Program-made: the position numbers and the translations under genes
From: Thermoplasmata archaeon
Lineage (GTDB): Archaea > Thermoplasmatota > Thermoplasmata > Methanomassiliicoccales > Methanomethylophilaceae
Length of the DNA: 64,000 nt
Assembly: GCA_015063235.1 (NCBI GenBank)
Contig: SUSW01000018.1
Location: forward strand, 1 to 64,000
Direction of reading: 5' to 3'
In this document: positions 43,563 through 48,874 of the stretch, piece after piece
Position numbering within the stretch: the first letter of the stretch is position 1
Layout of the letters: every line of letters begins with the position of its first letter
The notes under the pieces: model-generated
Database searches by the model: none
Seen by the model: the letters and a program-made list of their open reading frames with translations, nothing else
What the model was told of the DNA's origin: nothing

Positions 43563-43823
43563 TCAAAGGCTTCTGAATAAAGACCTCATCACATCTTCAG
43601 TCAGACCAGTGGATTCCATGATTTTTCCAATGGGTTCGTTACGATCCAGCATATCGATAGCTTTCTGTATGCTAGCTAAGGCTTCGGCCATCCCTTCAGC
43701 CCTTCCTTCAGCCTTTCCTTCTTCAAGACTGATACGCCTGATTTCCTTCTCACGGGCACGGATGCTGCCCTCTTTCGTCCACCAATCTTCGTACAGCCCC
43801 ATTTCAATCACTTTTCGGAGCAT
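43563..43823 (-). pseudogene. Duplicated C-terminal fragment of the adjacent Rpn-type nuclease gene
   Basis: Encoded 86 aa repeat the C-terminus of 43804..44775; 90 bp identical direct repeat (43594-43683 vs 43850-43939). Confidence 0.7.
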
Positions 43824-44775
43824 TGATTCTTATAAGAGACAAAATCACGTCTTCAGTCAGACCAGTGGATTCCATGATTTTTCCAATGGGTTCGTTACGA
43901 TCCAGCATATCGATAGCTTTCTGTATGCTAGCTAAGGCTACGGCCATCCCTTCAGCTTTTCCTTCAGCTATTCCCTCGGCTCTTCCTTCAGCTATTCCCT
44001 CGGCTCTTCCTTCAGCCCTTCCTTCTTCGAGACTGATGCGCCTGATCTCCTTCTCACGGGCACGGATGCTGCCTTCCCTAGTCCACATCTCCTCATACAA
44101 TCCCATGATCTCCGCCTCCCTGCTGATTATATATTGCGACAGTACCCCATTCTTCTGCCTGCAGAAGCTCATCAGGTCATTCACTGCGTCCTTTTCATAT
44201 CCTTTTGCGATTATTATTCTGTCGATTGTCCGGCAGATATCCACATATTCCTCGACGATTCCGAAATCTGGTATGGGAAGAATCTCCTTATCGTTCAGAT
44301 CGAACAGATCGGAGTGAATAGTGTCGAACCTCCAGATCTGAGCTCCGCCTTCCAATCCGGCCTTCTCCGAGTATATGATGTATATCTCCCAGTTAGGCAC
44401 ATTGTCTGCCCTTGCAGTGTATGTGGTCATGTCTCTGGACAAAAGATACTGCTCCATAGTCCTGCTAAGATAAATCAAGGATCTGAGAAGTATTGTGCTC
44501 ATCCTGGTCGTCTGAGCCTCGACGAGGCACATCACCGTGTTCTTCACCACCATGCCAAGATCGTTCACGGGACCGTCTATCAGCACATTGCTGAGAGTCA
44601 CGATATCAACATCGTCTACGGTGACGTCGTTATCATCCCTGTGAAGATCCTTGTAGAGTTCAAGGACCATGCCTTTCTCCTTGAATGCGTTGATAAACAC
44701 AGAATCCTTCAGTGTCCTTTTGGCAATCTGTTGGCTGCTCTCGAAATTTACTCCTTTCGTTTCGTCGCGATTCAT
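43804..44775 (-). CDS. Rpn-family / PD-(D/E)XK nuclease-family transposase-like protein
   Basis: LIDGPVNDLGMVVKNTVMCLVEAQTT, AEGRAEGIAEGRAEGIAEGKAEGMA repeats near the C-terminus typical of the family. Confidence 0.75.
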   Translation of the reverse strand: MNRDETKGVNFESSQQIAKRTLKDSVFINAFKEKGMVLELYKDLHRDDNDVTVDDVDIVTLSNVLIDGPVNDLGMVVKNTVMCLVEAQTTRMSTILLRSLIYLSRTMEQYLLSRDMTTYTARADNVPNWEIYIIYSEKAGLEGGAQIWRFDTIHSDLFDLNDKEILPIPDFGIVEEYVDICRTIDRIIIAKGYEKDAVNDLMSFCRQKNGVLSQYIISREAEIMGLYEEMWTREGSIRAREKEIRRISLEEGRAEGRAEGIAEGRAEGIAEGKAEGMAVALASIQKAIDMLDRNEPIGKIMESTGLTEDVILSLIRINAPKSD

Positions 44776-45030
44776 GCCTAACAATCCTCGGAACAACATG
44801 TCGGCGTAGGTATAAGAGTCTAAGAAAGGGAGGTGGCCGAAAGTCCAGGGTGGCAAAAACCGATTTCATTTTAAGGTTCTTAAAAGGAATCAGACACTGG
44901 ATAGCTTCCGATCCGTCCAAAACAATCTAAGGTTATTAAAATCGAAGGAGTGAAAGTGCAGAAACCGCAGGAAAACGAAGACAATCACACGAGTGTAGCA
45001 TATTTATCCATCCAATCCGATACTCTGGCC

Positions 45031-45543: not shown

Positions 45544-46086
45544 TCAGTCCTGGAGATTGTCCTTCACACTGTTTATCCTCTTGACTGCCTGAATATACTT
45601 CTCGTGCTCGGCATCCGCCGCCCTTTTGCAGTCCAGATACTGATCGTGACAGACCTGGGCCTCCTGCCTAAGCTTATCGGCCTCGTCGAAGAGGAGATGC
45701 ATCTTTTCGTGGATTGCCTGACCGCTGGTGTTGCATTTAACCATCTTCTGATGATAGGTCTCGGCCATCTGCTTGGCACCGCTGATGTCGCCAAGGCCGC
45801 CTCTGGCCTTCATCATCTTGACCTTCTCGTTCCATTCGTCACGTTTCTGCTTGTTCTCCTGGGCCGAGAGATTGTAATCGTCCCTCTGGGCCTTCAGCGC
45901 CCTGGCCTCCGAGGACAGTCTCTTCGCCTTCTCCTGCAGCTTGTCGCGCTTCTCCGCAAGGACGTCTGCCTGCTGATGGTATTTGTCCCTCTCGGCCTTA
46001 TGATTGGCGGCTTCCTTGTTGAGCTCCTTCAAGATATCGTCCAGCGTACGGATGTCCTGCTCTATGGAATCTGAGATCTCGCTCAT
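45544..46086 (-). CDS. Coiled-coil protein
   Basis: MSEISDSIEQDIRTLDDILKELNKEAANHKAERDKYHQQADVLAEKRDKLQEKAKRLSSEARALKAQRDDYN; strongly charged heptad-like composition. Confidence 0.65.
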   Translation of the reverse strand: MSEISDSIEQDIRTLDDILKELNKEAANHKAERDKYHQQADVLAEKRDKLQEKAKRLSSEARALKAQRDDYNLSAQENKQKRDEWNEKVKMMKARGGLGDISGAKQMAETYHQKMVKCNTSGQAIHEKMHLLFDEADKLRQEAQVCHDQYLDCKRAADAEHEKYIQAVKRINSVKDNLQD

Positions 46087-46128
46087 GGTACGAAACGATA
46101 AATGTACTGGAAGGATATATTCTGAACG

Positions 46129-46365
46129 ATGAGCAACGAAGCCTACCGCAAGTGCCGTACCTGCAGATTCTGCAACCATCACGGGGAGATGTGGATATGT
46201 GTAGCGGAGACCAGGCCGACAGAGCCAGATGGCACATGTGGAAGGTACCGTCCCGGATGCTGCGAAAACTGCAACTACTTCTGTGACGGGAAATGCAGAC
46301 AAACCGGCGAAGAGATGTTCGAACTCGACGTATGTACATCATACGACCCGTCAGGTTCCATCTGA
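46129..46365 (+). CDS. Small Cys-rich (probable metal-binding) protein
   Basis: 78 aa with CRTCRFC...CxxCNYFCDGKC pattern. Confidence 0.55.
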   Translation: MSNEAYRKCRTCRFCNHHGEMWICVAETRPTEPDGTCGRYRPGCCENCNYFCDGKCRQTGEEMFELDVCTSYDPSGSI

Positions 46366-47262
46366 CATCCTCTGCTTCCTGTTGGAGAGGATATTGGACA
46401 CACTGGTCCTGGCTGTGGATCCGCCTGTCATGACGTTCTTCGCGGATTCAGGAATGCCCAGATAGACGATGTTGTCGCATATTCCCGTGTTGGCCCTCAT
46501 TTGTGGCCTCACCTTGGAATACGATTCCTGCATCCTGCCTATCTCGCCGTTGAGCATCTCAGTCAGCTCATACACGTGCTTCAGCCTGAACTGGCTAGCG
46601 TTCACATAACCTTCCTCCGGAAGGAAAGGATTGTAGGTACCGTCCTTGAAGTCCTCATCGAGATCGTCTATCGCATCCATGATGTAGACTACCGTGCTGA
46701 GCTGACGGAAGACATTATCAAGATCATCGCTGGCATGTTGACCTGCGATATCTCTCAGTGCTCCAATGAGTCCCTCCCCGAATGTACGTCCCATGAGCAC
46801 CGCATCCCTGCATCCCTGTTTCTCCAGGGACCTGAGGTTCGCAAATCCCTCACCCACCATCCTGTCATAATCGGGGTAGCTACCGGCCGCCTTCGCGATC
46901 GCACCGGAAAGTGCCGCCGAGGCCGCTTTGGATTTCAGCGACGGCTTGTCCTCATCGTCGTCGAAAAGCTCCCATTTGGTGAGGATCAGCGTATATGCGG
47001 CCATACGCCTCATCAGGTCGGAATCGGCCTTTGGCTCCCTGAAAACGCAGAAATTGCTCTTCGTCCCCTCGAAATCAAGGACGTCCCCGGCGATGCTGTT
47101 CAGAAGGATCGTGTTGAACGTCATGTCGTAATTGACGGTCAGGGTGCTCCTCAATCCGAAATCATGCTTCAGATGATGGCATCCCTCACAGTAGTACCTG
47201 CGGTACACCCTGCTGTCGGCCGGAGAGAGCCTGTTGTAATAAGGCAGGGTGTATCCCAACAT
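46351..47262 (-). CDS. DUF5685-like protein
   Basis: MLGYTLPYYNRLSPADSRVYRRYYCEGCHHLKHDFGLRSTLTVNYDMTF; DAIDDLDEDFKDGTYNPF. Confidence 0.6.
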   Translation of the reverse strand: MLGYTLPYYNRLSPADSRVYRRYYCEGCHHLKHDFGLRSTLTVNYDMTFNTILLNSIAGDVLDFEGTKSNFCVFREPKADSDLMRRMAAYTLILTKWELFDDDEDKPSLKSKAASAALSGAIAKAAGSYPDYDRMVGEGFANLRSLEKQGCRDAVLMGRTFGEGLIGALRDIAGQHASDDLDNVFRQLSTVVYIMDAIDDLDEDFKDGTYNPFLPEEGYVNASQFRLKHVYELTEMLNGEIGRMQESYSKVRPQMRANTGICDNIVYLGIPESAKNVMTGGSTARTSVSNILSNRKQRMSDGT

Positions 47263-47391
47263 GGATTCTCAATCACCATGGTTCGATAAATTGATTGGCA
47301 TAGCTAACCAGTCTGGGGTCACCCTCACGATTAAATATAGTTAACTTGTTAGCCAGTTTATCAGACCACACCATCTGATAGGGTGAATTTC

Positions 47392-47700
47392 ATGTCCTAC
47401 GATGCACAATCCATCGAACAACTGACAGCAATGTATGAGAGCCAGTCCCCCAATGCGTTCATCGCTTTCGCTATGGAGGGGCTTCCTGAGAACAACGAGC
47501 ACGCCGAGCGTTTCGACAAGGACGCCGATGCGGAGCACAGCGAGCTTTCACACTGCGGTTACCCCTGCTGCAACGACAGGGGGCTGTGCAAGACATGGAA
47601 AGGACACCTCTGCGTCATCGGTACCGTCGTGGTACTGGTCGCATGTTGCTGTTACGTTACAGACGGATTCTTCGGTGCATGGCCGTTCTGGCCCTTCTGA
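47392..47700 (+). CDS. Small Cys-rich protein with hydrophobic/aromatic C-terminus; candidate radical-SAM substrate (RiPP precursor)
   Basis: SD-like GGTGA 5 nt before ATG, TATA-like TTAAATATAG upstream; HCGYPCCNDRGLCKTWKGHLCVIGTVVVLVACCCYVTDGFFGAWPFWPF. Confidence 0.55.
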   Translation: MSYDAQSIEQLTAMYESQSPNAFIAFAMEGLPENNEHAERFDKDADAEHSELSHCGYPCCNDRGLCKTWKGHLCVIGTVVVLVACCCYVTDGFFGAWPFWPF

Positions 47701-47712
47701 ACTCACATTCAC

Positions 47713-47742
47713 ATCCGTCACGGTGCATCGTCCGTGACGGAT
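47713..47742 (+). promoter_or_regulatory. 11-bp perfect intercistronic hairpin (ATCCGTCACGG-TGCATCGT-CCGTGACGGAT) just before the radical SAM start
   Basis: Exact inverted repeat ending 7 nt before the ATG at 47750. Confidence 0.6.
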
Positions 47743-47749
47743 CCATATT

Positions 47750-48874
47750 ATGAAACCGCACATCACCATCATTATCAAACCCACTCTTTTTTGCAACACC
47801 GACTGCAAGCATTGCTACCATATCCCCAAGGACCGTATCAAAGGCGAGATCTCGTTGGAACGTGTTGAGAAACTCATCAAACTGGCTTCCGAGGAGTATC
47901 AAACCGCCTGGTTCATCTGGCATGGCGGCGAACCGCTGACCATCCCGATGTCGTTCTACAAGGACGTCATCTCCCTTGAGGAGAAATACTTCGGAAAAGA
48001 CTCCATGAGGTACGGGAACACCATCAATACCAACGGTATGTTGCTGAACAGGAGGCTCATGGCCTACTGCAGAGAGAAGAAGATCAACGTCGGAATCTCT
48101 TATGAAGGCCCGTACAACTACGTTCTTAGAGCAGGGGATGTGGAAAAAACCCTCGATACCCTGTCCGCCAAGGATAACAAGTACTCTATATCCGCCACCA
48201 TCTCGAAGGAAACGGCATCCAAACAGAAGGAGATATACGAATACTTCAGGGACAGGGCAGTCAGCGTATCGCTGTCTCCGGTTATCGCTGCAGGATGCGG
48301 CACATGCTACGTCCCGGACACGGAGGAATTCGTGAAAGGGAGCATAGAAGCGTTCGATGAATGGCTCTTCGACAACCAGGCCAGGATTCCTCTGATGCCT
48401 TTCTACCTCTACATCCAGCATTACCTTGGGGAACCCGTTCCCTCGGACTGTGCCCACACCTCGTGTCTGACCAAATGGATCTGCATGTACCCGGACGGTT
48501 CGCTCTACCCATGCGCCAAGGCATGCCCCAAGGGATTCCTCATGGGCAACATAGACGATATCGGCTCGATCAGTGATGCCTTCCAATCGGAAGGATTCAG
48601 GAACATCCTCGTCGGATCCATAAAGAGGCGCGAGAAATGCTCCTCATGCGAGATATATCGGTTCTGCAACGGTGGCTGCAGCGTGGATGCATGCTACGAA
48701 AACGGCCTGGAGGAGAACGGCGGTGCCTCGTGCGAAGCGTACAAGCGCATATTCAGACACGTATCTTCGGAGATACAGAAGATCCTGGACGAGAAGCCCA
48801 ATCTGGATCGTTACAATCCCTTCGTGAAAGAAGCTGTGATCGGCAAGCTCCTTAATCCGAAAACCATTGCCTGA
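47750..48874 (+). CDS. Radical SAM/SPASM-domain maturase (anSME / peptide-maturase-like)
   Basis: CNTDCKHC radical SAM motif; WHGGEPL; SPASM cysteines CLTKWICMYPDGSLYPC ... CSSCEIYRFCNGGCSVDACY...C. Confidence 0.85.
   Translation: MKPHITIIIKPTLFCNTDCKHCYHIPKDRIKGEISLERVEKLIKLASEEYQTAWFIWHGGEPLTIPMSFYKDVISLEEKYFGKDSMRYGNTINTNGMLLNRRLMAYCREKKINVGISYEGPYNYVLRAGDVEKTLDTLSAKDNKYSISATISKETASKQKEIYEYFRDRAVSVSLSPVIAAGCGTCYVPDTEEFVKGSIEAFDEWLFDNQARIPLMPFYLYIQHYLGEPVPSDCAHTSCLTKWICMYPDGSLYPCAKACPKGFLMGNIDDIGSISDAFQSEGFRNILVGSIKRREKCSSCEIYRFCNGGCSVDACYENGLEENGGASCEAYKRIFRHVSSEIQKILDEKPNLDRYNPFVKEAVIGKLLNPKTIA

Follow-up and report, generated by a model that had tools for sequence, protein, structure and literature searches.

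Among the closest described systems are the SCIFF systems of the Clostridia, in which a Cys-rich precursor is encoded lineage-wide beside a radical SAM/SPASM maturase, and the wide spread of these systems argues against an antimicrobial role (PMC8326336). The locus described here resembles SCIFF and ranthipeptide systems in that a lineage-wide Cys-rich precursor likewise adjoins a radical SAM/SPASM maturase. It differs in being archaeal, in having a precursor that matches no SCIFF model and that carries a hydrophobic segment and a WPF end, in having an enzyme without the extended N-terminus seen in SCIFF maturases, and in its obligate third gene, which encodes a DUF5685 protein. The features of the locus are listed below by their positions in the window, that is, the whole stretch of 64,000 nucleotides that was analysed.

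46354 to 47262, minus strand: DUF5685 protein, 303 amino acids (PF18937, 4.4e-44); residues marked are CExCH, C72, D101-D102-xx-D105 and D196-xxx-D200-xxx-D204
47263 to 47391, no strand assigned: divergent promoter region common to both sides, 129 bp
About 47331 to 47339: TATA-like box TTAAATATA, kept upstream of the precursor in relatives
47359 to 47380, plus strand: 5' leader stem-loop TATCAGACCACACCATCTGATA, directly 5' of a GGTGA ribosome-binding site
47392 to 47700, plus strand: candidate Cys-rich precursor, 102 amino acids, 8 Cys, tail WPFWPF
47713 to 47742, plus strand: intergenic hairpin with an 11-bp stem and loop TGCATCGT; covariation, one strong match per genome
47750 to 48874, plus strand: putative radical SAM/SPASM maturase, 374 amino acids (PF04055, TIGR04085)

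Two observations concern other parts of the window. An ORF at 46129-46362 on the plus strand encodes 78 amino acids with several Cys pairs (CRTCRFC, CENCNYFCDGKC) and is possibly a gene for a small zinc protein; it overlaps a coiled-coil gene on the opposite strand (45547-46302). On the minus strand at 43563-44856, two neighbouring ORFs have near-identical C-termini, in which EGRAEG-type repeats are followed by IQKAIDMLDRNEPIGKIMESTGLTEDV, as though one had arisen by partial duplication of the other.

The original prediction had described the 102-residue Cys-rich ORF and, 49 nt downstream, a radical SAM/SPASM gene, and had read them as a RiPP-like cassette. Both genes are present as described, the first with its eight Cys and WPFWPF tail and the second, after a gap of 49 nt, with matches to PF04055 (6.6e-11) and the SPASM model TIGR04085 (9.9e-10). 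Of 147 genomes of the order that were searched, 72 yielded the precursor and 79 the enzyme. At 76 loci, the precursor ends 1-53 nt upstream of the enzyme and belongs to the same family, which is the co-conservation of short Cys-rich ORFs beside enzyme orthologs that had been proposed as a check. Orthologs standing without such an ORF would have spoken against the cassette, and none was seen: every full-length ortholog has the precursor. The remaining enzyme loci comprise a piece at a contig edge (G084), a pair whose two genes fall on different contigs (G123), a pair disrupted by frameshifts (G036), and a locus whose precursor was missed by the filter and recovered by profile search (G044); a second enzyme copy in G056, 29% identical, is another gene.

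Profile searches across the class (400 genomes) and the phylum (390 genomes) identified convincing precursors only in the archaeal family to which the host belongs, a family of Methanomassiliicoccales-type methanogens (E 1e-18 to 1e-43). Weak matches beyond this family (E 0.003-0.009), most of them containing stops, were attributed to chance, as were those in G068 and G113. The pair is normally single copy, with two copies in G030, and its downstream neighbours differ from genus to genus. In trees of the enzyme and of DUF5685, both rooted on g12, most genera form clades, g9 being an exception, and patristic distances in the two trees correlate at 0.89; together these results indicate vertical inheritance. 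A module that occurs in one family alone, is passed on vertically and is as a rule present once per genome is more akin to lineage-wide SCIFF than to a roaming bacteriocin, and its tracking of genera argues for a product that serves the producer itself rather than one that kills competitors. We therefore consider it very unlikely that the product is a bacteriocin-type RiPP exported against competitors, an explanation that would suit the Cys-rich core, the aromatic tail and the gut habitat of the named relatives. In addition to the family-wide, vertical inheritance of the module, the invariance of core residues and the lack of consistently linked exporter, protease or immunity genes stand against it.

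Alignment of the precursor family revealed a leader with the motif L..LY..QSP.AF, in which Y15 and Q18 are invariant, and a core that starts at C55 and in which C55, C59, C60, C86, Y88, W100 and P101 are invariant. The number of Cys ranges from 8 to 14 across the family, with CC and CCCY clusters present. A hydrophobic stretch of 19 residues (about 71-89) has Kyte-Doolittle values of 1.6-2.7 across the family, and of 0.8-2.2 with Cys scored as zero. The protein ends in WPF in 66 members, WPN in 5, WPY in 3 and WPL in 2. The product is probably a membrane-inserted small protein.

No Pfam or NCBIfam family covers the precursor; a single DUF294 match (0.014, below the cut-off and in one member only) was attributed to chance. 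The earlier statement that it belongs to none of the known sactipeptides, ranthipeptides or SCIFFs is supported. Ranthipeptides and sactipeptides are defined by a thioether that runs from a Cys sulfur to an alpha, beta or gamma carbon. SCIFF calls for six Cys in about 45 residues and a TIGR03974-type maturase above cut-off, whereas the precursors here have 8-14 Cys and the enzyme scores 59 bits against that model's cut-off of 425, aligning from model position 107. The general RiPP arrangement, a leader-plus-core precursor adjoining a modifying enzyme, is found with both motifs kept at 76 loci, in agreement with the prediction of a leader and Cys-rich core substrate with a radical SAM/SPASM partner. 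The RiPP-like label thus stands as regards the pairing. In its strict sense, which includes proteolytic release of a mature peptide, it finds no backing in neighbouring proteases or exporters: across the loci the pair has neither a peptidase nor an exporter as a constant neighbour, though a remote one is possible, and release is therefore unsupported.

The enzyme carries its CxxxCxxC motif at C15/C19/C22 and, by HMMER, aligns almost end to end with the anSME structures 4k36/4k37, the closest solved structures (3e-24). By the auxiliary-cluster ligand assignment of anSME, the AuxI ligands would be C234, C239, C255 and C310 and the AuxII ligands C297, C300, C306 and C328. These eight cysteines are all in register with anSME and 100% conserved in 75 orthologs, consistent with the two-cluster SPASM domain originally proposed. 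The combination that marks radical SAM/SPASM enzymes, CxxxCxxC plus seven or eight SPASM Cys, is present with one exception, G024, which lacks CxxxCxxC. Among NCBIfam models, those for peptide maturases and for anSME score highest, every one below its cut-off, and the best profile is that of DynA (149.5 bits, far under its cut-off of 450). The enzyme is similar in length and SPASM architecture to the cyclophane-forming maturases DynA, GrrM and AmcB, and its presumed substrate shares with theirs a conserved Trp near the C-terminus; the archaeal substrate differs from those of the three in being Cys-rich and largely hydrophobic. A structure model of the enzyme built from five close sequences was discarded (pLDDT 44).

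The alignment with anSME raises the alternative, also named in the original prediction, of an ordinary sulfatase maturase that lies beside an unrelated small gene. The closest solved structure and a TIGR03942 score of 143 bits are in its favor. However, the cut-off of that model is 349, no sulfatase was found in the host's own genome (which is 87% complete, so that this absence is not absolute), and a dedicated precursor is always adjacent. Moreover, the relatives read have Ala, Ser or Gly directly after the YPC cysteine, where anSMEcpe has Asp277, the presumed catalytic Asp. We judge this alternative extremely improbable.

At one locus (L121, G024:C19) the enzyme homolog, whose gene directly follows that of the precursor, has lost the CxxxCxxC, GGEP and TNG motifs. 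Its frame is open (367 aa) with all SPASM cysteines kept, as are the precursor and DUF5685, and it is either a descendant reduced to its SPASM part or an enzyme in decay. The loss of CxxxCxxC and GGEP from a module otherwise kept implies that radical chemistry is dispensable in G024. A SPASM half that persists after loss of the radical SAM motif is what might be seen if the Cys-rich protein were a small membrane protein with a metal-binding or redox function, with the enzyme merely co-expressed or using the precursor as a carrier or chaperone, and the hydrophobic segment and the CC and CCCY clusters fit that picture as well. Such an explanation is unlikely, in our estimate, given the strict one-to-one linkage of the protein to an enzyme of peptide-maturase type and the conserved leader motif that lies apart from the core. 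We favor the reading in which the precursor would serve as the enzyme's substrate.

The cassette had been proposed to consist of two genes. The pair itself stands, yet it is incomplete, as a third obligate member, the divergent DUF5685 gene, had been overlooked. Where DUF5685 and the pair share a contig, they are divergent in 73 of 73 relatives; they are adjacent (82-533 bp) in 69 of these and separated by 1.1-19 kb in four. Among the 390 phylum genomes, DUF5685 scores over its cut-off in 36, and these coincide exactly with the 36 that have the precursor. Within the order, the enzyme occurs without DUF5685 in one genome (G064, at a contig end), and G027, G050 and G095 (contig edges) have DUF5685 but not the enzyme, as does G015, a member of another family with a bacterial-type copy. 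Upstream ORFs grouped as "cluster 0" in some loci proved to be antisense ORFs of DUF5685.

At the J-domain loci of Clostridia, as in the archaeal module, a DUF5685 (PF18937) gene neighbours one for a protein whose C-terminus is Cys-rich and hydrophobic. Five bacterial-type loci have an intact DUF5685: L150 (in G015), L164 (Pusillibacter), L165 (Subdoligranulum), and L168 and L169, which are fecal scaffolds filed as phage. All five have, directly downstream, a gene for a protein with a confirmed J domain (often with TPR too) and a Cys-rich hydrophobic C-terminus, examples being CGSNLCLPLCCLYSLCPGGYCFFC and SCCTQMLCLNLLCNCCCCGGGF. They differ from the archaeal module in this J-domain partner and in that no radical SAM gene was seen. 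The actinobacterial DUF5685 proteins (L166 and L167; Nocardia and Nonomuraea) have a Cys-rich C-terminal tail of their own in two of two cases, and the degenerate copies L170 and L171 have no J-domain gene. In this small sample, then, there are three unrelated settings in which DUF5685 and Cys-rich tails go together. Scanning viral contigs with the bacterial DUF5685 yielded nothing.

Two further observations were made on these loci. The tails of the J-domain proteins (L150, L164, L165, L168, L169) recall eukaryotic cysteine-string proteins. The L150 cassette, in an archaeon of another family of the order, comprises a TetR-like regulator, DUF5685, a J-domain protein and DnaK, and was probably acquired from Clostridia.

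It could be argued that the pair is the whole system and that DUF5685 is a neighbour by chance or through the shared promoter alone, as its gene is divergent, lies outside the transcript of the pair, and stands at a distance in the four genomes noted above. The identical presence and absence of precursor and DUF5685 across 390 genomes, and the fact that DUF5685 in bacteria is independently associated with Cys-rich tails, make this quite improbable. On the preferred reading, in which DUF5685 belongs to the module, its inheritance and partners point to a role on the Cys-rich hydrophobic part of the precursor.

DUF5685 proteins share an invariant YC..C, a further Cys, an Asp motif at about 101-106 that reads DDxxD in the archaeal and DxxxD in the bacterial proteins, and DAxxDxxxD at about 196-204 followed by YN(P). 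In class-I prenyl synthases, Asp motifs lie on helices with three helices between them. A low-confidence AlphaFold model of DUF5685 from five close sequences (pTM 0.71, pLDDT 66) is all-alpha, with the two Asp motifs at helix ends and three helices between. Foldseek searches of this model against the PDB and viral models returned mostly prenyl synthases and UbiA, with probabilities of up to 0.97 and 1.00, yet with E values of 0.04 or worse, and hhalign comparison of DUF5685 with polyprenyl synthases and phytoene/squalene synthases gave a probability below 1% and lent profile homology no support. The model suggests that the fold is likely class-I prenyl-synthase-like. A more specific and doubtful proposal is that DUF5685 is a class-I prenyl transferase that adds isoprenoids to Cys in hydrophobic Cys-rich tails, namely those of the archaeal peptide, the bacterial J-domain proteins and the actinobacterial DUF5685 itself. 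If this were true, the archaeal peptide would be a membrane peptide modified twice, by a radical cross-link and by prenyl groups, and would represent a class new to description. As a separate observation, the host genome and several members of its genus encode a divergent additional polyprenyl synthase (G000:C17:64622-65338; 40 bits) beyond the usual two.

The hairpin between precursor and enzyme, predicted from the sequence as a perfect 11-bp stem, is there (arms 47713-47723 and 47732-47742, 8-nt loop) and is far beyond chance. Among about 15 members of the genus, 93% of its pairs are standard, 7 of 11 pairs show a compensatory change and the loop reads GCATCGT, indicating a genuine conserved RNA element; shifting the partner by 1-3 columns lowered pairing to 33-47%. 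A covariance model scored 32-50 bits, with a strong match at this place alone in each genome, which rules out a common genomic repeat or a regulon site, and no match was found in Rfam. Other genera have short precursor-enzyme gaps without the hairpin. The suggestion that the hairpin controls stoichiometry therefore stands only in part: the element is conserved, and its limitation to one genus means that such control is no general property. A second stem-loop directly precedes the ribosome-binding site of the precursor gene in many members of the family: perfect stems of at least 6 bp are found in 32 of 75 5' leaders of this gene, compared with 4.2 in shuffles (maximum 8), and in 3 of 80 regions upstream of DUF5685. 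It is a reasonable inference that RNA stem-loops control translation or the transcript ratio.

We think it likely that the three genes form a vertically inherited module that makes a modified Cys-rich small protein, probably inserted in the membrane and serving its producer. The precursor would consist of a soluble leader with the recognition motif L..LY..QSP, a core of 8-14 Cys, a hydrophobic segment and an end of WP followed by F, N, Y or L. The enzyme would bind the leader directly; it shows no N-terminal domain dedicated to recognition, and the radical SAM motif, starting at residue 15, leaves no room for one. It would then modify the core radically, most likely through a bond from a Cys sulfur, or from an aromatic side chain (W100 or Y88), to a carbon nearby. 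The bond may thus be a thioether or an aromatic cross-link, both types being covered by the highest-scoring enzyme models. DUF5685, expressed from the divergent promoter region, would work on or with the Cys-rich hydrophobic part, and in the host genus the hairpin would fix the ratio of precursor to enzyme. The product would stay with the producing cell, probably in its membrane, and have a role for the producer, as SCIFF may in Clostridia.

Archaeal lineage-wide precursor/maturase pairs have seldom been described, and for this order there are none in the literature searched. In that literature, from which subscription journals were mostly outside scope, so that an earlier mention is possible, nothing joins Methanomassiliicoccales, RiPP and radical SAM, and DUF5685 comes up in a single paper. 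The co-inheritance of DUF5685 with the pair, together with the Cys-rich tails of the bacterial J-domain proteins, provides a concrete and testable substrate hypothesis for this orphan family. As the holders of the module are rumen and gut methanogens, a membrane component found throughout their lineage would be of practical interest.
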